From NCBI GenBank assembly GCA_017515475.1, contig JAFWFS010000027.1, forward strand, positions 126,829-190,828: DNA of 64,000 nucleotides, written 5' to 3'. Of the stretch, positions 9,668 to 27,109 are shown piece after piece. The position numbers and the translations under genes were made by a program. Position 1 is the stretch's first letter, and every line of letters begins with the position of its first letter. Below the pieces are notes generated by a model. That model made no database searches and was not told where the DNA came from. It saw only the letters and a list, made by a program, of their open reading frames with translations. This DNA comes from Erysipelotrichaceae bacterium. GTDB taxonomy: Bacteria > Bacillota_I > Bacilli_A > Erysipelotrichales > Erysipelotrichaceae.

Positions 9668-9714
9668 TTGGTTCATTACAAAAGCAAAACCGCATATTTG
9701 CATAAACGAGTTTG

Positions 9715-9723
9715 TGTTATGAT
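9715..9723 (+). promoter_or_regulatory. Extended -10 promoter with start of transcription at the start codon
   Basis: TGTTATGAT (hexamer 9718-9723) is an extended -10 element. Transcription would begin near base 9730, which is at the ATG pair of the next gene, so the message would have little or no leader. Confidence 0.5.
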
Positions 9724-9727
9724 AAAA

Positions 9728-11547: not shown

Positions 11548-11570
11548 GAGAAGAAAAACTTCTCTTTTCT
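11547..11570 (+). terminator. Rho-independent terminator of the zinc-ribbon operon
   Basis: Stem AGAGAAG / CTTCTCT with an AAAAA loop starts on the last base of the stop codon and is followed by TTTCTT. Confidence 0.8.
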
Positions 11571-11828
11571 TATGCATTTTTAAATATTTATAGAAGAATT
11601 CTTATAGATAATCTATAAAAATTAATAAAAAACCTAAAATAATTTGAAATTAGACTGATTCTTATAATAAAAATGATTTAAGATTCATGCGAAGGAATAG
11701 GAGGAAGAAAACAGGAATATCAACTATTTAAAAATAAATGATAAATTATTGATAAGTTTACAATTTTGTTAGATAATTATTAATGGATGATTATGTCCTC
11801 TTTTTGACGAGTTATTATTATCAGTAGT
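11571..11828 (+). other. AT-rich upstream region of the surface-structure locus
   Basis: About 260 bases of very AT-rich DNA without a credible gene. It contains a near-palindrome TTATAGATAATCTATAA at 11602-11618, an isolated strong ribosome site (AGGAGG near 11699) with no usable start codon behind it, and two similar AT segments (11739-11752 and 11771-11783). A TTGTTA -35-like hexamer at 11766 and several TATTAT-like -10 hexamers up to 11821 are candidate promoter parts. It marks the boundary to the AT-richer surface locus and probably holds its promoter and regulator sites. Confidence 0.5.
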
Positions 11829-12233
11829 ATGGATGAGAAAGATATAAAAAGACTGAAGCGAATCGAACTCCTGGAAATGCTCTATGAACAGCAGAAACAG
11901 CTGGAGCAGTTGCAGAAAGAAAATCTGATGCTGAAGAAAGCCTATCATCAAAAACAGATCGTAATGCAGCAGGTGGGATCGATCGCCAATGCTTCTTTAG
12001 CTCTGACCGATATCTTTGAAGAAGCGCAGAAGGCTGCCGATATTTATCTGGAAAGCATCAAGTCGATTTATGAAAAGGCAACGGAAGGAAAAGGGATTCC
12101 GGATCTAAGTATCCCGGATAAACTCATCACTACGCAGAAAGGCAGACATTCAAGCAAAGCAAATGAGCAGATTACCCTCAAGCGAAGAACTAGGCAGAGC
12201 GTTAGCGAACGAAAGATACAGAATCAACTTTAA
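11829..12233 (+). CDS. Coiled-coil protein of surface-protein loci
   Basis: A 134-residue protein without signal peptide. Residues 5-45 are a clear coiled coil rich in Leu, Glu, Gln and Lys, followed by a helical stretch (VGSIANASLALTDIF) and a basic, poorly ordered tail. Proteins of this plan are often found directly upstream of a Lep-type signal peptidase and sortase substrates in Firmicutes and Actinobacteria, sometimes labelled as DNA-repair proteins without basis; their role is unknown. Its last 71 bases overlap the signal peptidase gene in another frame. No ribosome site precedes ATG 11829; a TATTAT hexamer ends seven bases before it, so the message may be leaderless. Confidence 0.65.
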   Translation: MDEKDIKRLKRIELLEMLYEQQKQLEQLQKENLMLKKAYHQKQIVMQQVGSIANASLALTDIFEEAQKAADIYLESIKSIYEKATEGKGIPDLSIPDKLITTQKGRHSSKANEQITLKRRTRQSVSERKIQNQL

Positions 12234-12732
12234 TAAGGCATTGCGTTCTACTGTCTATGCTTTGATTACGGTTTCTGCGGTAGCTGTACTGGTTGCCGTA
12301 CTGCTGCTGCCGGTGTTAAGGATCTATGGAACATCCATGACCCCGACACTGGATGAAGGAAACTATGTCGTAGCCGTGAAAGGTTCCGATTTCCAGACCG
12401 GCGACATCATAGCTTTCTACTACAACAACAAGATTCTGGTCAAGCGCGTCATTGCGAAAAGCGGCGACTGGGTGGACATCGATACCAATGGAAACGTCTA
12501 TGTCAACAACGTGCTCCTGAATGAACCTTACGTTACGGAAAAGGCCTTCGGCGACTGCAATATCGCCCTGCCTTATCAGGTTCCCGAAAGCAGGGTATTC
12601 GTGATGGGAGATCACAGAAGCGTATCCGTAGATTCCAGAAATACAGCCATAGGCTGTGTAGCCGATGAACAGGTCGTCGGTAAGATTATATTCAGAGTCT
12701 GGCCTTTGACCGGATTTGGATCAGTTAGATAG
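12163..12732 (+). CDS. Signal peptidase I, Lep type, of the pilus locus
   Basis: A 189-residue membrane protease that removes signal peptides from exported proteins. One membrane segment lies at about residues 30-52. The catalytic serine is Ser58 in YGTSMTP and the general-base lysine is Lys94 in LVKRV; the GDHR-x-S-x-DSR box near residue 150 completes the family signature. The Ser/Lys pair marks it as a bacterial Lep enzyme, unlike the SipW-type enzyme at the other end of the locus. The N-terminus LPSSEEL followed by a basic helix is typical of pilus-associated signal peptidases, which supports this start even though it overlaps the previous gene by 71 bases. It likely processes the neighbouring pilin and adhesin. 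Confidence 0.88.
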   Translation: MSRLPSSEELGRALANERYRINFNKALRSTVYALITVSAVAVLVAVLLLPVLRIYGTSMTPTLDEGNYVVAVKGSDFQTGDIIAFYYNNKILVKRVIAKSGDWVDIDTNGNVYVNNVLLNEPYVTEKAFGDCNIALPYQVPESRVFVMGDHRSVSVDSRNTAIGCVADEQVVGKIIFRVWPLTGFGSVR

Positions 12733-12749
12733 AAAAGGGAGAAAAAACT

Positions 12750-15700
12750 ATGAAAAAGGAAAGGATCTTGAATAGTTCAGGAAAAAAGGAATTATTCATT
12801 ATTGCAGCTGCATTGGTTGCATTCTTTACGATTTATTCGTTAGTATTACCGGCAATTACGCTGGATAACGATACGGCTGGTGATGAGCCGGGTCTTTCAA
12901 GTGATACTCTCTCCCAGGAAGAAGTAAACGAATTAGAAACTGTCTATGATCCTTTTAGTATTGAAGAAGAAAGAGAAAACGCCAAGAACGGGAACGATAA
13001 GGAAGATGAAATCCTTTCCGGATCTGAAGTAAGAGAAGACGTACTGTACTTCTTCGACAAGACGACGGATGTCTTTGTCAGTGTGGAAGCGCCGCTGGAT
13101 GCTTTCCCGGAAGGAACCGTCATGGTGGTAACACCGATCGATGAAGAAGAAGTTCTGGATGCCGTAAGCAATACAGTTGAAAAAGTTAAAAGAGTACAGG
13201 CTGTAGATATTACATTCTACTTTAACGGTGAAGAGATCGAACCGTTGAAGCCGATCAAGGTTTCGCTGGTATCCGATGTCATCAAGGAGGCAAAAGATCC
13301 GCAGATCGTTCATATTGATGACGAGGGTGCCGGTTCTTTGGTTGAACAGGCCGATGTGGAAACAAAAGAAGATGAAGTCGTATTCGAATCAAAGGACTTC
13401 TCTACCTATGTCGTTGTTGAAACCGAGATTGAAACCACAGTCATTACCGCTGACGGTGAAAGATACAATATCACCGTTTCTTACGATGAAAACGCGATGA
13501 TTCCTGAAGGAGCGCATCTGGAAGCGGAAGAGATTCTTCCGGAAGATGAAAGATATCAGGAATACTATGATACATTAACGAATGAACTGAAATCTGAACC
13601 GTACTATGTCAGATTCTTTGATATTTCCATCATGGATGGAGAAGAAAAGGTGCAGCCGGAATCCAAGGTCAATGTAAAGATCGAATTGAATGACCTGACA
13701 GATGAAGAAAACCTGAAGGCAGTGCATATCCCTGATGAGGGAAAACCGGAAGTACTGGATGTACAGGTTAATGAAGAAACAAAAAAAGATACAGATGAAA
13801 CCACAAAGTCTGTAGAATTCGATGCAGAGGGATTCTCTGTATATGCCGTAGTTGGAGAGGGAAGCACGGAAGACGAAGCGCGTGCAGCCGTTAATTTCTA
13901 CGGTAAAGACACTACTACCCCGCTTGCAACCGTTTATGTAAAGAACAGCGATACTGCTGATGAACTGGAAGAAATTGTTTATGATCCAGGCTGTGGACAA
14001 CTCGATGCCAGCAAGAAAGAACTGTTTGATGGTTGGGTCATCAGCACAAAGAACACAACCGATGGCACAGAATATGATATAGATACAGAAGGAAAAACAA
14101 TCGAAGAAGTCAGAACATATCTGGCTGATTTAGAGATCGCTGAAGGCGATGTCGTAAATATTTATGCGAAGATCGTAAGGACGATCACCATATCTTACCA
14201 AGGTGAAGTTCAGAATATTCTATTGGGTACGGTGAATCTTAAAGTCATAGGTTCTGACAATCCTGATGATCCTGCCAATATTGCAACTTATACAATCAAT
14301 ATGAACTATACGCCTCAGACTTCTACGCAGGCATTCGTGGGATGGCTGGTTGCCAGTGGTGGTTCAAACATTCTTTCGGCCACTTTTGAAGGGGAGGATG
14401 CTGAACTTCCATACCCAAATGGAACCGTAATCACGGTTAAAGGAGACGTGACATTGTCTGTAGATGCCCCTACCGGTCACTGGTTGGTATACGATGAAAA
14501 CGGTAAGGGAGCCACTTACAATGCACCACGCTTTATTAGAGATGGTGAAGTAACCGAAGCTCCTTCACTTGAAATGGTACGTCTCGGTTATACATTTGAA
14601 AACTGGTATAGACTGAAAGAGAATGTAGATATTGCAAACGTTCCTAAGGATTCAACCGGCAGCTATATTATTACCGATGAGAATTTTGAACTCTTTGAAT
14701 TTAGACATGAATTAGATGATAATATAACGATTTATGCAAAATGGAATTCAACAGAAACCGCAAACTACACCGTTATCATCTGGAAAGAACGTATGTCCGA
14801 TACATACGCAGCCAACGGCGGTACAGGCGAAGGAAAGACAAAGAATTATGACTTTGCGGAATCATATACTTTTAGTGGACCTGTTGAACAGCCTGCAAAC
14901 GCTGTAAGCAACGGCTCTTCTTCCGTTGTCGACGGCGATGACGCCGGCACAAGGTATTATAATGTGAGAGTTCAGGGCACGGAAGTCAGCCAAGGAGCAA
15001 TTGACAAGACGATATCCTACACCGGATACCACTGTGCAGGCTACGATACCAATGTAATGGTAAAGGCAGAGGGTACGTCTGTCGTGAACGTTTACTATGA
15101 CCGTAACACAGTTACATATACATTCTATACATATGGAGAGTCTTCATCTGGAGGCACATGGTATCTATGCAAGGAAGATGGTTCACATATTGTGGCAAGC
15201 GGACAAAATGCACCAACTTCAGGCGATAATAGATTAGCAATACGAAATGGAAATGAATATGATCAATACACCGGACGTGTTACATATGATGACGGAAGAA
15301 CCTATTATTACTCAACAACTGGTGCATGCGGTGGAACAAATATGCGTGAAGCTCACTGGGAATATGTGAGTTCTTCCTCCGAATGGAATGTCTACCAGAA
15401 ATCCACAGGTCTCTATGGTGAATCATTAGATTGGCCAGAAGATACAAGCATCTGGTGGTATGAGAGTCACAATGCTACATCTGGCACTGGCACCAGAATG
15501 ACTTATAAGGACGCATTCCTTCCTCTAGACGATGATATGTCCGTCGAGTATTGGGGCAATCAGGCTTCCGCTTCAGGTTATATTCATTTCTGGACACAGG
15601 ATATAGACGGTACGAATTATACCGATCAAGTTCAGGTCAATACGGGAAATGCAAACTTTAATATCAATGACAAGTTTACCGGTTTCTATGCGTATCAGTA

Positions 15701-18005
15701 TCGAGTTGATAACGGCACTTGGCAGAATGTCGGAGCACTCAATCCGAGCACGGGTATTTATGGATCGCCTGTTTCATATCGTAACCGTCTTGATATCAGA
15801 TACAATCGAGCAAAAGCGACGATTACTTTCATGGACGGTGCATATTTTGACGGTAATGGCAATCCAATGGACGAAACACCGCAGGCTGAGGAATTCTATA
15901 CAACCAACGAATACTTCTTTGGCCAAGATGTCAGTTCTTATAACAAGAACGGAAGTACATACTATACGCCTCCTGCAGTAAATGAATATACTTTCGCCGG
16001 ATGGTATGCAGATGATGCTTGCACGATTCCGTATGTATTCGGAGATATGCCATTGAGTGGTATAACGGTTTATGCGAAGTGGATCAAGAACCAGTATCGT
16101 ATATTCCTACATCCTAGTGTTCCAGAAACAGATACAACATTGAATTGGGGTTCTGAAGATCAGGATATGAACTTCAGGGTTTCTTCCGGAAGTAAAGTCA
16201 GTGCTCCTACTGGAACTAGAAGCGAATACAAGTTTATTGGCTGGTATCTTGATGAAGCATGTACAGAAGTATTTGATGCGGATAGATTTGTCTTGCACGA
16301 TACAACTGTAACTACTCCATATGACAAGACTGTTGATATGACCGATCCGATGAACAAGTATGGGAATATAGAAGGTACGGGTTATAACTCAGATTTAACC
16401 GGATATGATGGAGGAGACCGTTTCTGGATCACCAGAAAGCTCGATTTGTATGCCAAGTGGCGTGCGGAATTGATTGGTGCACAGGGCATTGGTGTTAAAT
16501 ATGATCCAAACGGTGGCTCCGGAGCACCTAGTGATACTACTCTGTATATGGATAATACCGATACAGTAGCACAAGGAGCTTCCACTCCTTCTGATGATAC
16601 TCAACAATTCTTATATTGGGTATTACAGAAATGGGATAGTTCTGCAAATAAATATGTAGACATTACTGACAGTGATGGTCATCTATTACATGTATATCCA
16701 GGCGACACTTTTACAGTATTGAAAGCAAATGCGCTTATTGAAGAACTGGAAGGTAGTACAGAACAGGATCCGAAATACAGATATACAGTTCAATTACGTG
16801 CTGAATATGGTCCGAAAGATGAACCGACTCCTACGCACCTGATTTGGTATGGTAACGGTGGTGTATTAGCAACAGATAATTCAAAAGACCGGATAGAAGA
16901 CCCTGCTCTTCAGATAAACCAGGCAGAAGATATTAGACCTGCAGGTACTTTCGTGCGAAATGGTTATGAATTCCTTGGCTGGGCTAGAGTTGATTCTACA
17001 ACCGAAGGCTATGTAATCGAAGAAAAGGATCTTACAAGGGATGATTTGTTCCTGAAATACGAAGAAGGTAAGTTCTATGCGCAGGTAACAGACGGCTCGG
17101 ATGAATGGACTGAAGTAACACAGATTGCAGCTGATGAAAAGGATCCGTATCATGACTTATATGCTGTATGGGATGTTAAGAAATATACGGTTACCGTTGT
17201 TAAGTCTGTGAACGGCATAGAAAGTGACAATGAGATTCCGTTCTCATTTACCCCGGAATTTGCTGGATTGTCTGGAGAGACATATACTTTACCGTTCCAG
17301 CTTGTTGGCAAAGAGGGCGGTGTGGATATTGAAACGGTTCATTATGATCACACAAAGGAATTTGTTCAGGTTCCTTATGATACCGAGTTCTCAATTACCG
17401 AAGCAGAAAATACTGGGTTTGATGTAATCTGCAAGTATTCAGTGACAGATGCAGACGATGAAAGCGAGAATAAAACTGTATTGAATGTTGCTAATGGCAC
17501 AACCATTACAGTGAAAGGCAATGTTGAATTGACGGTCATCAATACCAGAAAGACGCAGCAGCTTAAGGTTTTAAAGACCAAGACGGACGGCTCGACTCCA
17601 TTAGGCGGTGCAATATTTACTGTAAATGTTGGAGGAGTAGATTACACATTAACTTCTGATTCAACAGATGGTTATCTGAAGAACGAAATCTTCTCTGATG
17701 GTTTGCTGATGGTCCCTTATGGAACATATGAGCTGACTGAAATAGCAGCTCCGGATGGATATATTCCTCTATCGTCCCCTGTTTCTATTACTGTGGATAC
17801 GAGTGGAATTCATGCATCGCCATACGATGTAACTGAGCCTACTGCTGAGAACAACTATTTCGTAATAACGATTCCGAATAATCCAGGTGTTGTACTTCCA
17901 AATACCGGAGGTTCGGGTGTTACTTCTATGTATATTATTGGTATTGCTCTTATGAGCATTGGAATTGCATCGTTTATAAGGAGGAAATCAATTCAAAGCA
18001 GATAG
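12750..18005 (+). CDS. Giant LPXTG-anchored surface adhesin with InlB-type repeats and a Cna-B-like domain
   Basis: A 1751-residue cell-wall protein. A signal-like hydrophobic segment ending in LVLPAITLDN occupies residues 15-40. Residues about 90-235 and 236-375 are two copies of a beta-rich domain, each with a PEGT/PEGA strand, a P-x-KV strand and a final F-S-x-YVV or YAVV strand. From about residue 600 to 1470 several InlB/Listeria-Bacteroides-type repeats occur, marked by GYTF-x-x-W, FAGWY, FIGWYLD, FLGWA and YAKW motifs. Residues about 1600-1700 form a Cna-B/SpaA-like domain with a TEIAAPDGY E-box. LPNTG at 1716-1720 is followed by a membrane helix and basic tail, the sortase signal. An AAAGGGAG site precedes the ATG. 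It is probably a pilus tip adhesin or separate wall adhesin; ligand unknown. The second half is AT-rich compared with flanking housekeeping genes. Confidence 0.88.
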   Translation: MKKERILNSSGKKELFIIAAALVAFFTIYSLVLPAITLDNDTAGDEPGLSSDTLSQEEVNELETVYDPFSIEEERENAKNGNDKEDEILSGSEVREDVLYFFDKTTDVFVSVEAPLDAFPEGTVMVVTPIDEEEVLDAVSNTVEKVKRVQAVDITFYFNGEEIEPLKPIKVSLVSDVIKEAKDPQIVHIDDEGAGSLVEQADVETKEDEVVFESKDFSTYVVVETEIETTVITADGERYNITVSYDENAMIPEGAHLEAEEILPEDERYQEYYDTLTNELKSEPYYVRFFDISIMDGEEKVQPESKVNVKIELNDLTDEENLKAVHIPDEGKPEVLDVQVNEETKKDTDETTKSVEFDAEGFSVYAVVGEGSTEDEARAAVNFYGKDTTTPLATVYVKNSDTADELEEIVYDPGCGQLDASKKELFDGWVISTKNTTDGTEYDIDTEGKTIEEVRTYLADLEIAEGDVVNIYAKIVRTITISYQGEVQNILLGTVNLKVIGSDNPDDPANIATYTINMNYTPQTSTQAFVGWLVASGGSNILSATFEGEDAELPYPNGTVITVKGDVTLSVDAPTGHWLVYDENGKGATYNAPRFIRDGEVTEAPSLEMVRLGYTFENWYRLKENVDIANVPKDSTGSYIITDENFELFEFRHELDDNITIYAKWNSTETANYTVIIWKERMSDTYAANGGTGEGKTKNYDFAESYTFSGPVEQPANAVSNGSSSVVDGDDAGTRYYNVRVQGTEVSQGAIDKTISYTGYHCAGYDTNVMVKAEGTSVVNVYYDRNTVTYTFYTYGESSSGGTWYLCKEDGSHIVASGQNAPTSGDNRLAIRNGNEYDQYTGRVTYDDGRTYYYSTTGACGGTNMREAHWEYVSSSSEWNVYQKSTGLYGESLDWPEDTSIWWYESHNATSGTGTRMTYKDAFLPLDDDMSVEYWGNQASASGYIHFWTQDIDGTNYTDQVQVNTGNANFNINDKFTGFYAYQYRVDNGTWQNVGALNPSTGIYGSPVSYRNRLDIRYNRAKATITFMDGAYFDGNGNPMDETPQAEEFYTTNEYFFGQDVSSYNKNGSTYYTPPAVNEYTFAGWYADDACTIPYVFGDMPLSGITVYAKWIKNQYRIFLHPSVPETDTTLNWGSEDQDMNFRVSSGSKVSAPTGTRSEYKFIGWYLDEACTEVFDADRFVLHDTTVTTPYDKTVDMTDPMNKYGNIEGTGYNSDLTGYDGGDRFWITRKLDLYAKWRAELIGAQGIGVKYDPNGGSGAPSDTTLYMDNTDTVAQGASTPSDDTQQFLYWVLQKWDSSANKYVDITDSDGHLLHVYPGDTFTVLKANALIEELEGSTEQDPKYRYTVQLRAEYGPKDEPTPTHLIWYGNGGVLATDNSKDRIEDPALQINQAEDIRPAGTFVRNGYEFLGWARVDSTTEGYVIEEKDLTRDDLFLKYEEGKFYAQVTDGSDEWTEVTQIAADEKDPYHDLYAVWDVKKYTVTVVKSVNGIESDNEIPFSFTPEFAGLSGETYTLPFQLVGKEGGVDIETVHYDHTKEFVQVPYDTEFSITEAENTGFDVICKYSVTDADDESENKTVLNVANGTTITVKGNVELTVINTRKTQQLKVLKTKTDGSTPLGGAIFTVNVGGVDYTLTSDSTDGYLKNEIFSDGLLMVPYGTYELTEIAAPDGYIPLSSPVSITVDTSGIHASPYDVTEPTAENNYFVITIPNNPGVVLPNTGGSGVTSMYIIGIALMSIGIASFIRRKSIQSR

Positions 18006-18040
18006 TATGAGTTTAATGTACGAAGAATGAGGTGAAACTA

Positions 18041-18697
18041 GTGTATCAATATTTCTTTTTAACAGGGGATATTCTACTGGTGTTGATGATGACGTTCATC
18101 AATAACAAGTACTACAAATTACCAAAATGGAAGATTGTTTCTTTCTCTCTTGGTATCGTACCAATTGGATATTTCTGTGGAAAACTGATGAGACTGGTTG
18201 AAGCCAATACCTGGTCTGGCGTATCTTTCTATGGGGCCGTTCTGTTTGCTCCAATACTAATGGTTCTATTTGGATTATTACTAAAGATTAAACCATTGGA
18301 TATGTTGGATATGTGTGCACCAGCTGGATGTATTGCCCTTGTTTTTATGAAAATTCAGTGCAAGATAACTGGTTGCTGCTACGGAAAGATACTCAGATAT
18401 GAACCTAATGGCAGACCAGTTCGATTCCCAAGCCAGATTGTAGAAATGATATTTGGAATTATCCTACTGATTATTATTATGATGATTATTCAATCTAAAA
18501 AAGAAAAAGGATATGTCTACGCATGGTTTCTACTTCTGTATGGTGCATCTCGCTTTGTATTAAATCTCTTTAGAGATACCGAGCCATTCGTTCTGAATCT
18601 ATCAGCCGGGTGTTTCTGGTCAATTATCTCGGTTATTATTGGAGGAACAGTTCTGTATTTGAAAAAAGTAAAGGAAAAAAGATATGTTAAGAAATGA
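18041..18697 (+). CDS. Lgt-like membrane protein of the pilus locus
   Basis: A roughly 218-residue protein with about seven membrane segments resembling the prolipoprotein diacylglyceryl transferase (Lgt) family. SGVSFYGAV resembles the family's GG-x-x-x-G segment, and ITGCCYGK followed by FPSQIVEM matches the divergent Lgt-like group that carries GCCYG and P-x-Q-x-x-E. The family arginine before this motif is replaced by lysine (FMKIQCKITGCC). The frame opens at GTG 18032, but GTG 18041 is preferred because a GAGGTGA ribosome site lies 6-7 bases before it. A separate, canonical Lgt is at 33351 in this window, so this copy is not the housekeeping enzyme. It may modify a partner in this locus; the protein encoded at 21326 has a possible lipobox. 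Function is not proven. Confidence 0.7.
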   Translation: MYQYFFLTGDILLVLMMTFINNKYYKLPKWKIVSFSLGIVPIGYFCGKLMRLVEANTWSGVSFYGAVLFAPILMVLFGLLLKIKPLDMLDMCAPAGCIALVFMKIQCKITGCCYGKILRYEPNGRPVRFPSQIVEMIFGIILLIIIMMIIQSKKEKGYVYAWFLLLYGASRFVLNLFRDTEPFVLNLSAGCFWSIISVIIGGTVLYLKKVKEKRYVKK

Positions 18698-18782
18698 ACA
18701 AATAAAAATACTTTGCACATGCGGAATTGTCGCAATGTATGAACATAGTTTGAGGCGTAAGAAAAGAAAGGAGGTCAAGTAA
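18684..18782 (+). CDS. Possible 32-residue peptide, or remnant of a sorting-signal tail
   Basis: An open frame overlaps the end of the Lgt-like gene and runs into the gap before the major pilin. An AAGGA site lies about eight bases before the ATG. The peptide has a short hydrophobic middle (ILCTCGIVAM) and ends in LRRKKRKEVK. That ending looks like the membrane-plus-basic-tail end of an LPXTG protein, so it could be the leftover of a lost pilin gene. The internal AAAGGAGG has no start codon after it. Support is weak. Confidence 0.25.
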   Translation: MLRNEQIKILCTCGIVAMYEHSLRRKKRKEVK

Positions 18783-18879
18783 CTAGATACTAGCCTCGAT
18801 TCGACGCTAAACGCCGAAAAACTATTTCAGAATAAATTGGATTATAGATTTATATTATTAGTTATTAAAGAAAGGATTT

Positions 18880-20244
18880 ATGAAAATGATGAAAAAATTA
18901 ATGACATTGTTAGTTGCTGTAATGATGGTATTCACAATGACTAACAGAGTACACGCTGAAACAGGAGACCCTGAAACAGCAACAGTTACTGTTGTTTTAC
19001 CGTCCGAAATGGATGGCGAAAACACAACAAATGAGACTTACACAGCATATTTGATTCTCAATGCAACTGAGACTGCAGAGTTGTATAATCAAAGCCCTAT
19101 TGCTGAAGGCGATGAAGGTATCACATATTATACAACCGCAGCAAAGGCAGCTGTATTAGGTACTTATTTCACGTTTGCTGACGGCAATGTCGGTGGATCG
19201 GCTGTAAAAGTACTTACTGCCCATTCTTTGACGTCAGGTGGAGATCAGGAACAGGCACAGGCTTTATTAGCGATTGCAAAAGCAAATAGTTTTACTTCGA
19301 CTTCTTTAACGGCTAACACAGCTGGAACTGAATTTTCTGCTACTCTTCCTCTTGGCTTCTATGTTATCGAATCTTCATTAGGTTCATACGTTGTTGCCTT
19401 AACTACAGATATGAAGGTTGCTCAGAAGAACGTATATCCTTCTTTCACCAAGGAATTCACTAATACTAATGACAAGTATGTTGCAATCGGTGATACTGTT
19501 GAATATACCATTAAAGTAACAGTACCTGAAACAGTTAATAAAGTTATCACAATCACGGACACTTTAGATGCCGGTTTAACTTACAACAACGATGCTTCAG
19601 GTGCTTCTGCAACAGTTAATGGGCAAGTTATCACTTTCACGATTCCGGCTTCTGCTGCCGGCTCTGATGTTACGATCACTTATTCTGCTCATGTAGAAGA
19701 AACGGTTACATATACTGGTGCATACAAGAACACTGCTCATTTGAAATATTCAAATTATCAGACTAAAGATGTAGAACTTACTTCAAAAACAAACAAAATT
19801 GAACTATTAAAGTATGATGGCGCTGATACAAATAAAAAACCGCTTCCTGGTGCCGTATTTGAACTGAGACTAAATGGAACAGCACTAACTTTAGTAGGCT
19901 CAGGCGCTTCTTATCGTTTAGCTGATGCAGAAGAAACAGGTGTAACTCAGTTTACAACTGTTGATTCAGGAAATATCGTTATCGATGGTCTTGATTCCGA
20001 TGTATCTTATCAGTTTGTAGAAATAAGCGCTCCGGAAGGCTATAATGCTTTGACTGCGGATGCTGTTCCTGCATCTGCTCCTGCAACAACAAATGATACT
20101 GTAGTTGAAGTAGCCAACAATACCGGAACGGTTCTTCCTTCAACCGGTGGTATCGGTACCACGATCTTCCATGTAGCTGGTGCTTTACTTGTACTGGGTG
20201 CTGGTATCGTATTAATCTCTAAAAAGAGAGCAAATAATAACTAA
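18880..20244 (+). CDS. Major pilin subunit with LPSTG sorting signal
   Basis: A 454-residue SpaA-type pilin. The signal peptide ends near residue 25 (RVHA-ET). A region around residue 185 (KNVYPSFTKEF) resembles the pilin motif that normally reads VYPK; the usual lysine is displaced, with Lys in FTKEF the likely cross-linking residue (inference). A middle domain (about 195-300) has an isopeptide-type fold pattern with ITDTLDAGLTY, and a Cna-B-like domain (about 305-420) carries the E-box FVEISAPEGY. LPSTG near residue 421, a membrane helix and KKRANNN tail complete the sortase signal. It is followed by a strong hairpin and a class C sortase gene, the classic pilin-polymerase pair. ATG 18886 is an alternative start with better ribosome-site spacing. 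Confidence 0.9.
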   Translation: MKMMKKLMTLLVAVMMVFTMTNRVHAETGDPETATVTVVLPSEMDGENTTNETYTAYLILNATETAELYNQSPIAEGDEGITYYTTAAKAAVLGTYFTFADGNVGGSAVKVLTAHSLTSGGDQEQAQALLAIAKANSFTSTSLTANTAGTEFSATLPLGFYVIESSLGSYVVALTTDMKVAQKNVYPSFTKEFTNTNDKYVAIGDTVEYTIKVTVPETVNKVITITDTLDAGLTYNNDASGASATVNGQVITFTIPASAAGSDVTITYSAHVEETVTYTGAYKNTAHLKYSNYQTKDVELTSKTNKIELLKYDGADTNKKPLPGAVFELRLNGTALTLVGSGASYRLADAEETGVTQFTTVDSGNIVIDGLDSDVSYQFVEISAPEGYNALTADAVPASAPATTNDTVVEVANNTGTVLPSTGGIGTTIFHVAGALLVLGAGIVLISKKRANNN

Positions 20245-20264
20245 TATATAAACTAAGTTTATTA

Positions 20265-20296
20265 TCAGGGAGCCCTGTTAATGCAGGGTTCCCTGA
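20265..20296 (+). terminator. Strong hairpin between major pilin and pilin sortase
   Basis: A 13-pair stem (TCAGGGAGCCCTG / CAGGGTTCCCTGA, one G-T pair) with a TTAATG loop lies 20 bases after the pilin stop. No T run follows, so it is more likely a partial terminator or an mRNA-stabilising 3' hairpin than a full stop. Either would give much more pilin than sortase. Confidence 0.65.
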
Positions 20297-20408
20297 GAAA
20301 GTTATTATCGATGATTATTCTGATGGTTATGCGTCAGGATCTGTGCATATATCTTGTTGATGTATGCAGATATCTTGCTGCGTGGCAGTAAGAGGGAGCG
20401 GTTTATAG

Positions 20409-21329
20409 ATGTTTAAAAGAGAGAAAAAGAAACAGGAAACTGCTCCAAAACAGAGCTGGATCAAGAAAAACTGGAGTACGGTTCTTGTTGTTTCAGTGTT
20501 TGTTGCAGGTTTGGGTCTGCTGATTTATCCGAGTTTCGCCGATTACTGGAACTCGTTCCATCAGACCAGGGCGATCATGACTTATTCCGAAGCCGTCTCT
20601 AACATGTCTAAAGAAGACTATGAAAAAGAGATCAACAGGGCAAAGGAATACAATCGCGATCTGGTTTTTGAAGGAATGAATTGGAACATGTCGGATTCGG
20701 ACAAGGAAAAGTATGAATCTACCTTGAACTTTACCGGGAACGGGATCATGGGCTATATCCAGATTGATAAGATCAAGGTAACTCTGCCGATCTATCACGG
20801 AACCAACGAAAGCGTGCTGCAGACCAGTATCGGTCATATCGAGAGTTCTTCTCTGCCGGTCGGAGCTTATTCCTACGATTATGATGAGGGTAGAGTAATG
20901 GATCCTCTGGATGGATCGCACTGTATTCTGACGGGCCATAGAGGTCTGCCTAGCGCGAAACTGTTTTCCAACCTGGACAGAATGGCGGAAGGAGATATCT
21001 TCTCTCTGAACATACTGGGCGAGACCTACACGTACCAGGTAGATCAGATCCGAGTTGTAGAGCCTTCCGATCTAAGTGATCTGGAAATCATTCCTGGGAT
21101 GGATTACTGTACGCTGGTTACTTGTACGCCTTACGGTATCAATACCCACAGGCTGCTAGTAAGAGGTCACAGAACGACGAATCCGCAAGGTGATCTGGCG
21201 ATCATTGCGGATGCGGTTCAGATCGACAGCGTTTATGTAGCACCGTTTATCGCTGCACCGATTATATTTGTATTAGTACTGATTGTGCTGTTTGGTAATA
21301 GGAAGCCAAAGAAGGGAGTAAGAAGATGA
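20409..21329 (+). CDS. Class C (pilin-polymerising) sortase
   Basis: A 306-residue transpeptidase with an N-terminal membrane segment (about 24-44) and a second one near the C-terminus (about 275-298), the arrangement of class C sortases. The catalytic His177 is in LTGHRGLPS, the catalytic Cys239 in TLVTCTPYG, and the Arg follows in HRLLVRGHR. These enzymes cleave LPXTG-like signals and join pilin subunits through lysine. An AGAGGGAG site precedes the start. It lies directly after the major pilin, its likely substrate, and overlaps the next gene by four bases. Confidence 0.92.
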   Translation: MFKREKKKQETAPKQSWIKKNWSTVLVVSVFVAGLGLLIYPSFADYWNSFHQTRAIMTYSEAVSNMSKEDYEKEINRAKEYNRDLVFEGMNWNMSDSDKEKYESTLNFTGNGIMGYIQIDKIKVTLPIYHGTNESVLQTSIGHIESSSLPVGAYSYDYDEGRVMDPLDGSHCILTGHRGLPSAKLFSNLDRMAEGDIFSLNILGETYTYQVDQIRVVEPSDLSDLEIIPGMDYCTLVTCTPYGINTHRLLVRGHRTTNPQGDLAIIADAVQIDSVYVAPFIAAPIIFVLVLIVLFGNRKPKKGVRR

Positions 21330-22627
21330 AAATGAAGAAATTCATCACAAGGGTAGTTCTGCTGCTGCTCATAATAACGGGATGTCTGACATTCAGAAGT
21401 ATACTGGCGGCAGGAAACAATTCCATAACGTTTACTTTTGAACTGCCAAAGCATGAAGGAGCCTATGATGAAGATGATCAACTGGAAGATGTTCTGGTAT
21501 ATGATCTGTATTATATCGCTCCGATCAAATGGGATGGCGCAGGTGATGGCACGAATCCTGAATCAACAAAGTACTATATTCCTTCCGGGGATATAGTTAC
21601 TTCTTATCAGAGTGCATTCCCTGCTTCTTTCAAAGACACGGATGGAAACATTAACGTCAGTGAAAGAGAAACACCTCCTGACTCTGGTGTCTATGAGCTT
21701 GTTAACACAGCACTAAAAGATTACACGCTTCCTGAACTGGCAAACGATCTGGCACGTATTGTTTACAACAATTCTATTACTCCTAATACTACAGATCCTG
21801 ATACAAACGATAGAGCTAATCTCCCATTTGTTGATAAAAACACAGGAATCGAGGACGGCCTCTATCTGGCACTTGTACATGTGGATGGTGACAGCAACTA
21901 TCTGAAAAAGAAAACTGTTAAGGTTCCTGTACCGGGTTCTGATACGTATACAGAAAAAGATGTATATTATACGGCTGCCAACTCCATTTATCATGAGTAC
22001 GATTTCAATCCGTTGCTTGTGTTCTTGAAGAGCACGGATGGAACAGCAGAACTTAAGGGAGCTCCAAAGTATGAAGAGAATCCTAGATATGATGATCTGC
22101 TGATCGTTAAGGAACTTACGAGTATCGGCGGCAAAGGAATAACGGAAGATACATTCTCTTTTGAACCTGTGACTTTTGTTTATGAAATAACGGCATATGA
22201 TCCGAAAGATGGTAAGACAGTAATCTATCAGGATGTTGCAGCTATCACTATCAGTTCCGATGAGCAGCTGATTGGACAGACAATAGTCGAAAGAATTCCG
22301 GTTGGTGCCAGGGTAGAAGTCAAAGAAATCTATGACCGTTCCTATAAATTGGATGGCACAAACAATCCTTTAGAAACGACGATTATCGTTTCCGCGAGAG
22401 ATGAGAAAGGAAATCATCTGAAGGATGATACAACAGATTTATATCTGTATCAGGATGATGAAGGAACGATTTTCGCTTATACATACTTTAAGAACAAATT
22501 CGATTTTGATCCTTTAGAGGGCTATGGTTTTGATAACGTGTTCCGTTATGGCTCGGAAGGCTGGAAATATGATGGAAACAAGATCTGTAACGTAGTTGAG
22601 CCAGGAGAAGGAGGAAATGAAAGATGA
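21326..22627 (+). CDS. Secreted surface protein, pilin-like, possible lipoprotein
   Basis: A 433-residue exported protein with no LPXTG and no C-terminal membrane helix. The N-terminal hydrophobic stretch is followed by ITGC, which fits a lipobox with Cys20; an alternative Sec cleavage after ILAA (about residue 29) is also possible. The mature part is acidic and beta-rich, with segments such as DGLYLALVHVD resembling the N-terminal domains of SpaA-type pilins, and a later domain (about 250-360) that looks like a Cna-B or DUF-type module (VKELTSIGGKGI, ITAYDPKDGKT). It overlaps the sortase gene before it and the SipW-type substrate after it. If it is a lipoprotein, the Lgt-like gene of this locus is a candidate modifier (inference). 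Confidence 0.65.
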   Translation: MKMKKFITRVVLLLLIITGCLTFRSILAAGNNSITFTFELPKHEGAYDEDDQLEDVLVYDLYYIAPIKWDGAGDGTNPESTKYYIPSGDIVTSYQSAFPASFKDTDGNINVSERETPPDSGVYELVNTALKDYTLPELANDLARIVYNNSITPNTTDPDTNDRANLPFVDKNTGIEDGLYLALVHVDGDSNYLKKKTVKVPVPGSDTYTEKDVYYTAANSIYHEYDFNPLLVFLKSTDGTAELKGAPKYEENPRYDDLLIVKELTSIGGKGITEDTFSFEPVTFVYEITAYDPKDGKTVIYQDVAAITISSDEQLIGQTIVERIPVGARVEVKEIYDRSYKLDGTNNPLETTIIVSARDEKGNHLKDDTTDLYLYQDDEGTIFAYTYFKNKFDFDPLEGYGFDNVFRYGSEGWKYDGNKICNVVEPGEGGNER

Positions 22628-23187
22628 AGAATAAACTGCTGATGCTGGTTTTGATCTTCCTGCTGCTGCTTGTCTCTGTGCCTTCAGCATGGAGCTACTT
22701 CTTTACTTATACCAAGGCAACAGGAACGATTACGATCAATCTGCTGGATGATAGCGATATTGACGAATGTGTGGTTGATAATGTAAAAGAAGTGACTGTT
22801 ACTGCGAAACCAAACAGTGATCCTGTCTTCATCAGGGTTAGAGTCTTTAAAGCGTCTGACGTAGCAGTATCTTATCAGGGTGATGGTTGGATACTTAATG
22901 GTGACTATTACTATTACAACATACCAATCGATGGAGTAGATGGTGATCCATTTGCTGATAATACAACAATCAATTTTACAGTAACGATGAGTTCTGAAGC
23001 GGAATACGCCGATGATGAAACAAGACATGTTGCTGTGGTTTATGAAGGAACGCCTGCTTTATTCACCACGGTTCAACCGACAAGTGGCACTTACTGGACG
23101 CAGAAAGATGGCGATACGGTTATCGGTTACTGGTATGCAAACTGGGAAAAGACCTTGACACAGCCGGCTGTTGGAGGAGAAAACTGA
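22624..23187 (+). CDS. TasA/camelysin-like secreted protein with SipW-type signal
   Basis: A 187-residue exported protein. Its signal peptide runs into SAWSYFFTYTKATGTITI, which matches the pattern of SipW-dependent signals (a Tyr/Trp-Phe pair, then a T-x-x-A-x-GT-x-T strand at the mature start), as in TasA, camelysin and related fibre proteins. The mature domain is a short beta sandwich (VTVTAKPNSDPVFIRVRVF; NFTVTMSSEAEYADD). No sorting signal is present. A SipW-type peptidase is encoded 2.6 kb downstream in the same gene run, the expected processing enzyme. A role as a matrix-fibre or minor pilus subunit is inferred. It overlaps the preceding gene by four bases. Confidence 0.7.
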   Translation: MKNKLLMLVLIFLLLLVSVPSAWSYFFTYTKATGTITINLLDDSDIDECVVDNVKEVTVTAKPNSDPVFIRVRVFKASDVAVSYQGDGWILNGDYYYYNIPIDGVDGDPFADNTTINFTVTMSSEAEYADDETRHVAVVYEGTPALFTTVQPTSGTYWTQKDGDTVIGYWYANWEKTLTQPAVGGEN

Positions 23188-23188
23188 T

Positions 23189-23995
23189 ATGAAAAAGAAG
23201 AATCTGTCATATGTTTATCTGCTGCTTCTGATTTTTGCTATCGGTATTCTGGGTTTTACAACAGTTTCCGGTGTAGCGGCCGCTGAACCTAACATTACAT
23301 CCGATGATCAGTCTTCTGTGATGAATATGAAGATCATGGGTGTTTCTGTACTGAAAAACGGAGATCCTGTTTCTACAATCGTTTACGATGGAGAAGGAGG
23401 CTGGGACAAGACAGAAACCACTACTCTCTTTGGTTCGGATGCTTCGTTGAAGGTTGGAGAAACCATCGATGCTTCCATAACGATCGCAAACGGTATTGAC
23501 AACGAGGATGAAAAGATCAATGTATATACCCGTGTCATCATCTACAAATACTGGATGGAAGATAATGAAAAGGATTTTTCTGCCGATCCGGCAAAGATTC
23601 ATGTTGCACTGAAGAACATTTCAGGTACTGTGAACAGTGATCTGGGTTGGAACATGGCAGGAAACGATGAAGATGCAGCTGGAACATGGCTGCTGGATTC
23701 CCAGACAAATGAAAAGATCATATTGTATTATGATTCTTTGCTGGAAGCTGGAGATGTCAGCGCTGAATTAATGAAAGGCCTTGAAATTGATGGAAGCATC
23801 AAAAACGACTATAAAACAGAGTATCTTGATGATGGCAAGACGATAATCGGGTACGACTATCTGTATAACGGCAAGTCGATTAAGATTGAAGTTGAATTGG
23901 ATGCTGTTCAGGACCACAGTGCTGAAAAGGCTATTAAGGCTGCCTGGGGCAGAAATGTCACCGTAAATGACGGCAAGCTCTCATTGAATGACTAA
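23189..23995 (+). CDS. Secreted protein of the SipW/sortase B cluster, function unknown
   Basis: A 268-residue exported protein with a signal peptide ending near SGVAAAEPN (about residue 33) and no sorting signal or C-terminal membrane helix. Its mature region (IDASITIANGIDNEDEKINVYTR) resembles the conserved strand pattern of TasA-like proteins, where a repeated N-x-x-x-x-x-x-VYVRV-like strand occurs. ATG 23189 is chosen since GGAGGAG precedes it by about ten bases and the signal peptide begins there; the frame opens earlier. It sits between the TasA-like gene and two membrane-anchored proteins, so it probably belongs to the same extracellular structure (inference). Confidence 0.65.
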   Translation: MKKKNLSYVYLLLLIFAIGILGFTTVSGVAAAEPNITSDDQSSVMNMKIMGVSVLKNGDPVSTIVYDGEGGWDKTETTTLFGSDASLKVGETIDASITIANGIDNEDEKINVYTRVIIYKYWMEDNEKDFSADPAKIHVALKNISGTVNSDLGWNMAGNDEDAAGTWLLDSQTNEKIILYYDSLLEAGDVSAELMKGLEIDGSIKNDYKTEYLDDGKTIIGYDYLYNGKSIKIEVELDAVQDHSAEKAIKAAWGRNVTVNDGKLSLND

Positions 23996-24010
23996 GGGGG
24001 ATTGATAAAG

Positions 24011-24823
24011 ATGAAAAAGATACTTGTTTGTTTATCTCTTATTCTGATTGCTTTGTCGGTTTTCCCGAATACTCTTTTGGCAGAAGAAGATGTGAAAGAG
24101 TATGATGTCGTCTTTGATGGCGAAAAGATCGTTTATTATCTTTATACACCTGAAGGAAAGGTTCTGATTGAGAATGAAGAAGACTTAATACTTGATCTAT
24201 CAGACTTTCAGCCGGATGACAGCATTAAACGTATTTACCATCTTGTAAATAATTCGAGCGATGCAATCGACTGGTATATGCACAATATTTCTGAAGATAT
24301 ATTTGAAGATTCTGATGATTCATCCGGAGGCTCAGATGATACCCCTAGAATTGCTCAGGATGCGACTTATACTTATAGTCTGACTTATTCAGCATATGTA
24401 CCTGCTCAGGACGGCAAGACGATTTATTCCAGCAATGTCGTTGGTGGCGAACTTGTCGGAGAAAGTGTTGACAACGTTCCGAAAGGAATTGAAGAAGCAA
24501 CCGAAGGACTGGAAGGATATTTCCTGCTTCATGAAGGATATGGAACCGGTGATGATGAGAAGGTGGAATTGTCATTACAGATCGACGGCGTTTCTTCCGC
24601 ATTTGTTTATCAGGGTACGGATGCGAATGTTGTGGTCGGTTTTGGCGTAGTTGTTCCGCCTTCACCAATCAATAAACATGAAGAGAAGATCGTCTATATC
24701 CCGTATACCGGTGATACGCTGAATCTCAATTTCTATATCATTGCCGAAGTACTGTCTCTAATACTGCTGGCAATCGTGCTTTATGCATATTACCGTTACC
24801 TGAAAAGGCAGAAGGAGGCCTAG
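24011..24823 (+). CDS. Surface protein with IPYTG sorting-like signal
   Basis: A 270-residue exported protein: signal peptide to about residue 25 (TLLAEE), a beta-rich outer domain, a C-terminal membrane helix and a basic tail (YRYLKRQKEA). Just before the helix is VYIPYTGDT, so IPYTG may serve as a non-standard LPXTG-like sortase signal. The order (signal, domain, P-x-TG, helix, basic tail) supports wall anchoring. ATG 24011 is chosen because a GGGGG ribosome site ends ten bases before it; a TTG further upstream is too close to that site. Both sortases in the locus could act on it; which one does is unknown. Confidence 0.7.
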   Translation: MKKILVCLSLILIALSVFPNTLLAEEDVKEYDVVFDGEKIVYYLYTPEGKVLIENEEDLILDLSDFQPDDSIKRIYHLVNNSSDAIDWYMHNISEDIFEDSDDSSGGSDDTPRIAQDATYTYSLTYSAYVPAQDGKTIYSSNVVGGELVGESVDNVPKGIEEATEGLEGYFLLHEGYGTGDDEKVELSLQIDGVSSAFVYQGTDANVVVGFGVVVPPSPINKHEEKIVYIPYTGDTLNLNFYIIAEVLSLILLAIVLYAYYRYLKRQKEA

Positions 24824-24825
24824 GA

Positions 24826-25779
24826 ATGAAAAGAAAAATCCTGTTTGTTTTCTTGATAGCTGCTCTGCTTTTAGGGGCAGGAACAAATAGAGCTCAGGCA
24901 GAAGGCAACAAAGAGTATAACGTATATGTTGATGGCGGCTCAAGCGCAGACGTTTCGGTAAGTTCTTTTTCTGTCGATTGCAATACGGTTTTGTCGATTG
25001 AACAGGTTGATGGAGCCTATCAGGTCAAAAACGGAAATAGTGTTTTATCTATCATAACCGTGAATGATAACAAGTATTACATCAAAGGTATCTGCATTTC
25101 CGGTCAATATCTGGACGTTAGCGACCTTTTATTGCAGGTAAACGTGGATCAGGACATTTATCTTGTTCCGGTTTTCGGTGTTATTGGAAACCGCTATTCT
25201 TATAAAGTCTACTACCACACCGAAGACGGTACGAACCTTTATGAAAAAGAGTACGACGAATTCTACTGCAATGTTAATGAACCTGTTGTCTGCGGTGCGA
25301 AGTATTTTGATATTGACGGTACTGTATACAAGTTGAAACAGGTGGAATGCTACGATGGTGAAACTACCACGGTTTATGACACTAGAGTAGGTTTCCGGAA
25401 GGAAATAGATAAGAACACGTACGAATTCACTTTTATCTATGAAGAAGTAAATCCGGAAGAAATCATTACTTATGATGAGACCTATGAATATGAACCAGGC
25501 CAGCCGACCGGCACGACACCGGGCGGAAACGAAGGAACTGAACCAGTAGTGCCAGATATCATCGACATCGATGATCCGGAACCTCCTACGACTGATCCGG
25601 ATCCTACTCCGGGACCTGAACCGACACCAGGTCCGGAACCTGAACCTGAAAAAAAGTCATTCTGGGAGATCCTGTTCTCTACACCATGGCTGATCGGAAG
25701 CGTAAGCGCTGCTCTGATCATGCTGCTGCTATTCCTGTTCTTCCTTTTCAGAAGAAGAAGGGAAAAGGATGAAAAGTAA
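24826..25779 (+). CDS. Membrane-anchored surface protein with proline-rich stalk
   Basis: A 317-residue type I membrane protein. Signal peptide to about residue 25 (RAQAEG), outer domain to about residue 220 with a segment (KVYYHTEDGTNLYEKEY) resembling MucBP-type domains, then a proline- and acid-rich stalk (repeats of DP, PTPGPEP, about 223-275), one membrane helix (about 285-308) and an RRRREKDEK tail. No P-x-TG motif precedes the helix, so it should stay in the membrane and may act as the base or anchor of the structure (inference). It follows the IPYTG protein by two bases and overlaps the SipW-type gene by 11 bases. Confidence 0.7.
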   Translation: MKRKILFVFLIAALLLGAGTNRAQAEGNKEYNVYVDGGSSADVSVSSFSVDCNTVLSIEQVDGAYQVKNGNSVLSIITVNDNKYYIKGICISGQYLDVSDLLLQVNVDQDIYLVPVFGVIGNRYSYKVYYHTEDGTNLYEKEYDEFYCNVNEPVVCGAKYFDIDGTVYKLKQVECYDGETTTVYDTRVGFRKEIDKNTYEFTFIYEEVNPEEIITYDETYEYEPGQPTGTTPGGNEGTEPVVPDIIDIDDPEPPTTDPDPTPGPEPTPGPEPEPEKKSFWEILFSTPWLIGSVSAALIMLLLFLFFLFRRRREKDEK

Positions 25780-26278
25780 GAAGCTGAATAAAAAGCTTCA
25801 GAAAACCCTGGTTCTGTTTTCCAGAATCCTGGGTATTATCGTTATTCTGTCAGTGGTATTATTATTAATACCACTTACTTTACCTAGGCTTATGGGCTAT
25901 GAGACCTATAACGTCGTTTCCGGAAGCATGGAACCTGAAATACCGGTGGGAAGTCTTTTGCTGGTGAAGAGCGTCGATCCTTATGAAATAGAAGAAGACG
26001 ACATCATAACGTTCTATTCCAACGGTACGGTCGTTTCCCACAGGGTCGTCAGAAACAATTCTTTCGAGAAGACGTTTACGACCAAAGGCGATGCCAACGA
26101 GGGCGTCGATCTTCATGATGCGGCTTATAATGAACTAATCGGCATTGTGAAACATCACATTCCATGGATGGGTGCTGTAGGTGCCTATGTTTCCACGGCA
26201 TCAGGAAAACTGCTGATCGGGGAACTGATTGTATGCGCAATATTGCTTTATGCGGTTTCTGCTAGAATAAAGATATGA
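25769..26278 (+). CDS. sipW: SipW-type signal peptidase I (S26B, Ser/His)
   Basis: A 169-residue signal peptidase with membrane segments near residues 15-38 and 145-165. The catalytic serine is Ser53 in VVSGSMEP and the base is His91 in VVSHRVV, in place of the lysine of Lep enzymes; TKGDANEG near residue 111 holds the conserved Asp. The Ser/His form, two membrane segments and short length are typical of SipW and archaeal/ER signal peptidases. In Bacillus, SipW processes TasA and TapA, fibre proteins of the biofilm matrix. Here it lies downstream of a protein with a SipW-type signal and next to a class B sortase gene, which it overlaps by four bases. Confidence 0.9.
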   Translation: MKSKKLNKKLQKTLVLFSRILGIIVILSVVLLLIPLTLPRLMGYETYNVVSGSMEPEIPVGSLLLVKSVDPYEIEEDDIITFYSNGTVVSHRVVRNNSFEKTFTTKGDANEGVDLHDAAYNELIGIVKHHIPWMGAVGAYVSTASGKLLIGELIVCAILLYAVSARIKI

Positions 26279-27027
26279 CAACAAAAAAGAAAAACAAAAG
26301 AATAGATAAGAAGTTCAAGATCGCTCTTTTGTTTTTTTTGATTATCGCAATTTGTATTTCCGGATTTAATGCCTACATGATCATCAAAGGTCTCAATGAA
26401 TACAACAAGGGAACCGATGCCTATGATGAAATCAAGGATATTGCGATAGATGAAAAGGAAACAACAGGATCAAGGATCGATTTTGCTTCACTGGAGCAGA
26501 TCAATCCGGATATTGTCGGCTGGCTGACGATGCCCGATACGGTAATAGACTATCCGGTCGTCAAGGGCGATGACAACGACTATTATCTGCATCATCTGTT
26601 TAACGGGGAATACAATTCCTTGGGAACACTGTTTGTAGACTTCCGTAACAAGGATCCTTTTGAGGACCAGATTACGGTGATTTATGGTCATTCCATGAAG
26701 AATGGATCGATGTTCTTCCTGCTGGAAAAGTATCGTGATCAGTCGTTCTACGAGGAACATAAGCAGCTTATTTATGAAACAAAAGACAAGACATACATCT
26801 TTGAACCGTTTGCCGGAGAGATCGTAGATGCGGAGATTCCGTTCCTGCAGTTCAATTTCTCATCGAAGAAGGAATATATGGCTTATCTGGATGATTTCAT
26901 CGCTAAATCGACGTTCAGAAGCGAAATCAGCCCTTCTGAAGAGGATAAGACGGTTATGATGATCAAGTGTTCGGCTGCCTATACATCGGCCAGATACGTG
27001 CTTCTATGCAGGGTAAGAGAAGCCTGA
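26275..27027 (+). CDS. Class B sortase
   Basis: A 250-residue sortase with a single N-terminal membrane segment (about 15-36). The catalytic His139 lies in IYGHSMKNGSMF, which is diagnostic for class B, Cys232 is in MMIKCSAAY, and the Arg follows in SARYVLL. The usual class B motif reads TC-S/T; here KCS is found, a small deviation. Class B sortases attach single proteins to peptidoglycan or to pili. It is the last gene of the locus and is followed by a terminator. Its natural substrate is unknown; the IPYTG protein and the SipW-processed proteins are the nearest candidates. Confidence 0.9.
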   Translation: MTTKKKNKRIDKKFKIALLFFLIIAICISGFNAYMIIKGLNEYNKGTDAYDEIKDIAIDEKETTGSRIDFASLEQINPDIVGWLTMPDTVIDYPVVKGDDNDYYLHHLFNGEYNSLGTLFVDFRNKDPFEDQITVIYGHSMKNGSMFFLLEKYRDQSFYEEHKQLIYETKDKTYIFEPFAGEIVDAEIPFLQFNFSSKKEYMAYLDDFIAKSTFRSEISPSEEDKTVMMIKCSAAYTSARYVLLCRVREA

Positions 27028-27060
27028 TGAAACCCGTATTTTAGAAAAGACAGGATGATG

Positions 27061-27086
27061 AAAAGAGAGGCGGTAACCTCTCTTTT
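27061..27086. terminator. Bidirectional terminator closing the surface-structure locus
   Basis: Stem AAAAGAGAGG / CCTCTCTTTT with a CGGTAA loop has T runs on both strands. It serves the sortase B operon and the convergent TraB-family gene. Confidence 0.85.
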
Positions 27087-27109
27087 CTGTTTATTATTGT
27101 TTACTGTTT

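Follow-up and report, generated by a model that had tools for sequence, protein, structure and literature searches.

A conserved operon layout that joins sortase-pilus genes to SipW/TasA-type genes, with a candidate adapter protein between them

Sortase pili and TasA-type matrix proteins are commonly treated as separate subjects. Here we analyse a 15.5-kb block within a 64,000-nucleotide stretch of DNA (the window) from an Erysipelotrichaceae bacterium (assembly GCA_017515475.1, contig JAFWFS010000027.1, positions 126,829 to 190,828), in which genes of both kinds stand in one conserved operon that recurs in several families of gut bacteria, with a single protein, P433, as the candidate adapter between them. 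We describe the gene content, the operon layout common to these loci and its conservation, the TasA-like fold of one modelled product, and a set of invariant residues with their distribution. From sequence, we consider it on balance probable that the locus encodes one appendage, in which P433 would be the basal pilin, carrying the pilus on Lys248 and docking by its tail on a SipW-processed, TasA-fold base.

Several described systems are close to this locus. SpaA/EbpC-type sortase pili share with it a class C sortase, an LPXTG pilin with conserved lysines and isopeptide domains, an LPXTG adhesin and a dedicated Lep-type signal peptidase. Unlike in those pili, the presumed basal pilin here has no LPXTG and ends in GxGxxN, and a SipW/BsaA/TasA-type set lies downstream in the same operon; some pili, among them PI-2, have no basal pilin (PMC7616799). 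The sipW-bsaABCRSD locus of Clostridium perfringens likewise combines SipW with BsaA-related proteins and has srtB beside sipW, but its description includes no pilus or P433, and deletion of srtB is without effect on BsaA, whose polymers form without SrtB and resist sodium dodecyl sulphate (SDS) and formic acid (PMC7395162). None of the two-component genes of that system was seen in the window locus.

The tapA-sipW-tasA locus of Bacillus subtilis and the sipW-tasA-capP-calY locus of B. cereus also have a SipW-type peptidase and TasA-fold subunits. TasA protomers and TapA join by strand donation (PMC10151520; PMC9674648), with TapA as the precedent for docking of this kind by a protein that is not TasA (PMC10151520). 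The window locus differs from both in that no TapA or CapP homologue was identified, its TasA-fold protein has a sorting signal, and a covalent pilus is part of the operon. Finally, C. difficile SrtB resembles the class B sortase found here in its PxTG-D-type substrate site, followed by a membrane segment and charged tail, and cuts (S/P)PXTG sites, SPKTGD context included; unlike the role proposed here, it anchors separate surface proteins rather than a TasA-fold base under a pilus (PMC4155245). Among the titles and abstracts searched, with preprints and most subscription journals outside the search, none describes a joined pilus-SipW locus, and we regard its novelty as provisional.

An operon layout shared by the pilus and SipW halves

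Downstream of an LPNTG adhesin gene the window carries, all on the + strand, the backbone pilin Pil (18880-20244), the class C (pilin-polymerising) sortase SrtC (20409-21329), the pilin-like P433 (21326-22627), two secreted, apparently BsaA-related proteins, P187 (22624-23187) and P270 (23189-23995), the IPYTG protein (24011-24823), its partner PPstalk, a membrane protein with a proline-rich stalk (24826-25779), the SipW-type signal peptidase SipW (25769-26278) and the class B sortase SrtB (26275-27027). The genes named in an earlier note on this DNA are present as open reading frames (ORFs) with the coordinates that it gives, and profile searches, given below with each gene, bear out its Lep-type and SipW-type peptidases, class C and class B sortases, LPSTG pilin, LPNTG adhesin and Lgt-like enzyme.

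From SrtC through SrtB, neighbouring genes overlap or almost abut. Both the SrtC/P433 and the P433/P187 junctions are 4-bp overlaps of the ATGA type, and the ribosome-binding site of P187 sits within the coding sequence of P433; the two halves therefore read as one operon. None of the terminator-like sites listed lies within a large intergenic gap, the hairpins at the ends of the block excepted, and promoter-like sites occur at chance frequency. The GG-rich ends of P433 and P187 were considered as a motif and rejected, because they encode the ribosome-binding site of the following gene.

The two halves are also kept together in other genomes, which the earlier note had named as one of the points on which its proposal would stand or fall. 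In joined loci the order is LPXTG adhesin-Pil-SrtC-P433-P187-P270-IPYTG-PPstalk, usually with SipW and sometimes with SrtB. In a second layout, a single giant protein of ~1,100-3,900 aa replaces the pilus genes and P433. A tree of P270 holds 33 joined loci, 15 giant loci and 16 that are unclassifiable (cut contigs or distant forms), so that SrtC is present in 33 of the 48 classifiable P270 cassettes, spread over two families of the order, Lachnospiraceae, Oscillospiraceae and other Clostridia, in the same gene order. SipW is adjacent in 28 of the 33 joined loci. When the joined or giant label is placed on the tree, about 5 changes are needed, compared to 13.1 in shuffles. In 15 loci the SipW half follows a giant and has no pilus with it, so that it is an independent, general platform of which the pilus is one cargo; the earlier view of one system needs amending on this point.

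IPYTG and a P270 profile, used as queries, detect the SipW half in 15/101 genomes and in 43/316 genomes of the order. A scan of named genomes adds carriers among Lachnospiraceae (among them a metagenome-assembled genome of [Clostridium] symbiosum and Acetatifactor muris DSM 23669, whose locus, L123, is of the joined kind), Oscillospiraceae and other Clostridia. A broader sample of 392 genomes yielded few further cases of P187, and a plasmid collection searched with a P270 homologue yielded no relative. Contig 28 of the genome from which the window comes carries another cassette (L037:459-15131), of the giant type. Its genes encode P187, P270, an IPYTG-PPstalk fusion and a giant of 3,901 aa, and no SipW was seen adjacent. 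Because the window SipW is the sole SipW above cut-off in this genome, it may serve both cassettes. In more distant cassettes (L090-L097), a P270-IPYTG-PPstalk core is surrounded by one or two genes for SipW and by several that are BsaA/TasA-like.

P433 and the tail it shares with the giants

P433 stands at the hinge of the two halves and is the one additional pilin-like gene. Among its homologues there are matches to DUF5979, DUF7601 or Cna_B. A profile comparison shows the first domain of P433 to be similar to that of Pil, and the P433 model has weak matches to the sortase pilins PitB, CppA, Spy0128 and EbpB. A search of PDB sequences with the P433 profile gave one unexplained weak match, 9his (5.5e-4). 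In the 33 joined loci P433 ends without LPXTG and without a C-terminal membrane segment; it therefore departs from SpaA-type pili, whose basal pilin has an LPXTG wall anchor.

Two sets of residues distinguish what P433 shares with the giants from what it does not. Lys248, Lys262, Glu334 and Asn404 are invariant in P433 of the 33 joined loci, and Lys248 is found in 33/33 SrtC-linked P433 proteins versus 1/21 giants, the one case being a doubtful alignment. Lys248 lies between two P433 domains, at the position where pilins have their linking lysine (presumably Lys183 in Pil). Lys262 and Glu334, by comparison, occur in 54/54 P433 and giant proteins and Asn390 in 52/54; these three, common to both kinds of protein, correspond to the usual Cna_B isopeptide triad.

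The second shared element is the C-terminal tail. The motif GxGxxN-x-F (GYGxxN-x-F in P433) ends the protein encoded just upstream of P187, be it P433 or a giant, and Asn404 is present in all 54 tails. A loose form of the motif is found in 48 of 58 ORFs directly upstream of P187, compared to 14 of 791 other ORFs, and a strict form in 39 of the 58, compared to 2 of the 791. The motif was first spotted in genomes of the order and then checked in loci of other families, where N-x-F is present in every one.

These distributions bear on whether the two halves are simply neighbours, that is, a pilus and a SipW-dependent complex that are co-inherited and co-regulated and never touch, with P433 as a secreted accessory. 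The 15 loci with a SipW half and no pilus would fit this, as would the roughly five changes of state, which show that the halves have been separated or rejoined. However, the gene order is strict and the junction has translational overlap, Lys248 is limited to P433 proteins linked to SrtC, and P433 and the giants that replace it have the same tail. We consider mere neighbourhood distinctly unlikely. The earlier proposal of a hybrid fibre thus keeps its first part, that of one system, which joint conservation and translational overlap favour; its second part, a single mixed fibre, fits less well than a model with P433 as adapter.

The 'possible lipoprotein' of the earlier note can only be P433, which has a lipobox-like ITGC. 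The family does not support that reading: a match is found in 5/33 homologues, 2 of them too close to the N-terminus for a lipobox.

Base proteins and the proposed assembly

P187, which has a SipW-type signal (SAWSYF), and P270 appear to be related to BsaA and to each other. Among their homologues, 13/30 for P187 (best 3e-8) and 13/15 for P270 (best 7.6e-9) match TIGR04090, the BsaA family, and the two profiles match one another with a probability of 96.9. Lys55, Glu48 and Glu141 are invariant across the 30 P187 homologues. These residues suggest a variant of the assembly proposed here, in which Asn404 of P433 or of a giant makes a spontaneous isopeptide bond with Lys55 of P187. SpyTag/SpyCatcher pairs are the model for such joining. 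Asn404 is invariant in the tails, and BsaA polymers, which form without SrtB, withstand SDS and formic acid (PMC7395162), which would be compatible with a covalent bond. Lys55 and the residues like it may, on the other side, be kept for reasons of fold, and we think a covalent tail improbable. Equivalent lysines are usual in SipW substrates.

The IPYTG protein, present as the earlier note had it, appears in addition to be TasA-like. Structure prediction, which the earlier note had suggested for P433, P187, P270 and IPYTG, gave for the last of these, with 32 homologues, a model with a predicted local distance difference test (pLDDT) score of 77.8. TasA structures 5of2 and 5of1 rank first and second among 350,542 PDB chains in Foldseek (E 6.8e-3 with probability 1.00 for 5of2, E 8.5e-3 with probability 0.99 for 5of1), and they give Z scores of 8.5 and 8.1 over 140-144 residues, with unrelated folds scoring from 7.0. 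The margin is modest, yet both methods put TasA first, which suggests a TasA-like fold for the modelled protein. No useful match came from PDB sequences when profiles of P187, P270 and IPYTG served as queries.

The C-terminus of the IPYTG protein resembles a sorting signal. Thr233 is invariant in 32/32 aligned homologues, and the site takes the forms IPYTGD, LPNTGD and, mostly, VKTGD. The window protein has the features of a class B substrate, with a PxT[GS] signal at the predicted sorting site, a membrane segment and a charged tail; the srtB_target model TIGR03063 matches 3/32 homologues, the window member not among them. Across the family the motif reads [PV]xT[GS]D, which is similar to the class B sites (S/P)PXTG of C. 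difficile, and we count this in favour of anchoring by SrtB. In four loci (L036, L037, L038 and L122) IPYTG and PPstalk are fused, without a sorting site in the fused version, and in two others (L109 and L111) SipW and SrtB form a single ORF of 445 aa; the fusions indicate that the parts in each pair are linked, and the latter supports a link between the two enzymes.

SipW scores 86.4 bits against TIGR02228 (the SipW/archaeal-type model, cut-off 51.85) and, with 78, falls short of the 190 set as the cut-off of the equivalog model for Bacillus SipW. SrtB (IKCS) scores 205 bits against TIGR03064 (8e-61; cut-off 153.75). We dropped the idea that IPxTG is confined to loci with a local SrtB, because LPNTG and IPKTG forms occur without one and because SrtB-type sortases are present in 275/316 genomes of the order. 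Two distant SrtB-like genes in the window's own genome (L134:1453-2262 and L135:1435-2346) each lie near a gene that, by eye, resembles one for a D-Ala-D-Ala carboxypeptidase or dipeptidase. No product of the locus has a Pfam or NCBIfam match to a TapA-like starter; P433 could take that role with a different fold.

If P187 and P270 are BsaA/TasA-like, they might polymerise into a fibre of their own that P433 and the pilus decorate, which would be a hybrid fibre in the sense of the earlier note. Relatives of BsaA build ultra-stable filaments with no need of sortase (PMC7395162), heteropolymers of TasA and CalY occur in B. cereus (PMC13082335), and nearly every cassette has two BsaA-related genes. 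By contrast, the TasA-fold protein of the cassette, which has a sorting signal, and the membrane stalk beside it look like a fixed base, and P433 has one conserved docking tail. We judge such a mixed matrix unlikely, while noting that sequence alone does not tell a short base from a long fibre. A covalent pilus joined to a TasA-fold base through one adapter, P433, would fit better than a single mixed fibre.

In the adapter assembly, Lep would cleave the signal peptides from adhesin and pilin, and SrtC would couple each pilin by its LPSTG threonine to Lys183 of its neighbour; the LPNTG adhesin would stand at the tip or close to it. SrtC would then hand the chain to Lys248 of P433, at which point growth would stop. 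The GYGxxN-x-F tail of P433 would dock on P187 and P270 in place of an LPXTG anchor, probably by strand complementation, which is plausible because TasA folds accept a donated strand. P187 and P270 would be SipW-processed base proteins of the BsaA/TasA type, this adjacent pair being the likeliest partner of P433; the IPYTG protein would tie the base to the wall through SrtB, and PPstalk would keep it at the membrane. At other loci the same base would carry a giant adhesin with the same tail. We infer all of the binding and bonding, as well as the sequence in which the parts assemble and the connection of Lys248 with SrtC. A wider reading seems to us possible, if a shade short of probable: a general display route of Gram-positive gut bacteria whose cargo has no LPXTG. 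GxGxxN-x-F tails on pilus bases and giant adhesins would dock into a TasA-fold socket; SipW would process this socket, and sortase B-like and membrane anchors would hold it.

Several points weigh against this assembly. P433 was modelled poorly (pLDDT 64), and Lys248 corresponds to pilin Lys183 by position, not in a scored alignment; the profile comparison of Pil with P433 does not place Lys183 on Lys248. The counts are not independent, as the loci are related, and an independent-pairs test is too small for significance: it offers 5 pairs when the unsupported tree is used and 2 when support is required, and in these 2 the residue behaves as expected or shows no difference. Similarly, of the roughly five changes between joined and giant layouts, two are on well-supported branches. 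The window's own P187 and P270 individually have no TIGR04090 match, so that their BsaA membership is by family. Many IPYTG homologues carry VKTGD, a non-classical motif, and in vitro the SrtB of C. difficile did not cleave the related NVQTG (PMC4155245). Finally, SrtB adjoins the cassette in only about one third of joined loci, although sortases of this type are frequent in the order; it is thus optional and not the defining anchor, whereas the earlier note had the fibre anchored by sortase B.

If the adapter model is true, it would provide a new mode of pilus anchoring and, at the C-terminus, a new kind of surface signal. It would assign a location to proteins, some as long as 3,900 residues, that at present seem unanchored, and TasA/BsaA-fold proteins would have a role beyond biofilm fibres. 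The model reduces to clear tests, on one lysine and one tail.

Pilus genes and acquisition of the block

Near the left end of the block is a small gene (11829-12233, +) for a cytosolic, coiled-coil-like protein without a match in a family search, which is paired with Lep here and at 8 other loci (L024, L075-077, L082, L083, L105 and L123). The Lep-type signal peptidase I (12163-12732, +) matches PF10502 (112 bits, 4.5e-32) and has Ser58 in GTSM. The 1751-aa LPNTG adhesin (12750-18005, +), with four PF09479 (Listeria-Bacteroides) repeats and a SpaA domain, is a probable pilus tip or ancillary pilin, and LPXTG adhesins occupy the matching position in L024, L025, L030 and L106. Pil, SpaH/EbpB-like and with an LPSTG, has an RrgB_K2N isopeptide domain (TIGR04226, 58.6 versus a cut-off of 30, 1.1e-15) and scores 80.2 against NF033902, slightly below the cut-off of 95; its Lys183, Lys191 and LP-T-GG are invariant in 28/28 homologues. 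SrtC (TLVTC) scores 260.6 bits against NF033745 (1.2e-77), where the curated cut-off is 160.

Between adhesin and pilin lies an Lgt-like membrane protein gene (18032-18697, +; PF01790, 83 bits, 3.5e-23). We rejected it as part of the system and regard it as a passenger, since it is present in the window locus and in no other joined locus. A much stronger Lgt lies at ~33.4 kb of the window, and the Lgt-like protein is only 27% identical to this stronger Lgt of the genome.

The block is bordered by two terminators, a hairpin on the left (11546-11566, called on both strands) and one on the right (27060-27087, +) placed by a terminator scan and by comparison with empty sites. As the earlier note stated, the locus is AT-richer than its flanks, with a GC content of 0.35-0.445 inside and about 0.46-0.53 outside. 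The 15.5-kb block is missing from G034 and G021, which are the two lineages closest to the window's own once the near-identical G022 is set aside, and the site there is cleanly empty: the left-flank gene and the TraB-family gene on the right are about 430 bp apart with one two-way terminator between them, whereas in the window 15.5 kb lies between two such hairpins. The block was thus recently gained or lost. Transfer, which the earlier note had read from composition, is the likelier course, because low GC together with the empty site makes gain by transfer simpler than loss in both G034 and G021; loss is the less simple possibility. In three other genomes (G010, G017 and G031) the joined locus and the two flanking genes are on different contigs.

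Two minor observations concern the borders. In G022, a genome 97% identical to the window, a 243-bp insert lies between SrtB and the TraB gene (L138:1297-1600), and the right terminator is duplicated around this insert. To the left of the block, at 9668-11547, are three tandem genes for small membrane proteins, the first two of which start with a zinc-ribbon-like segment.

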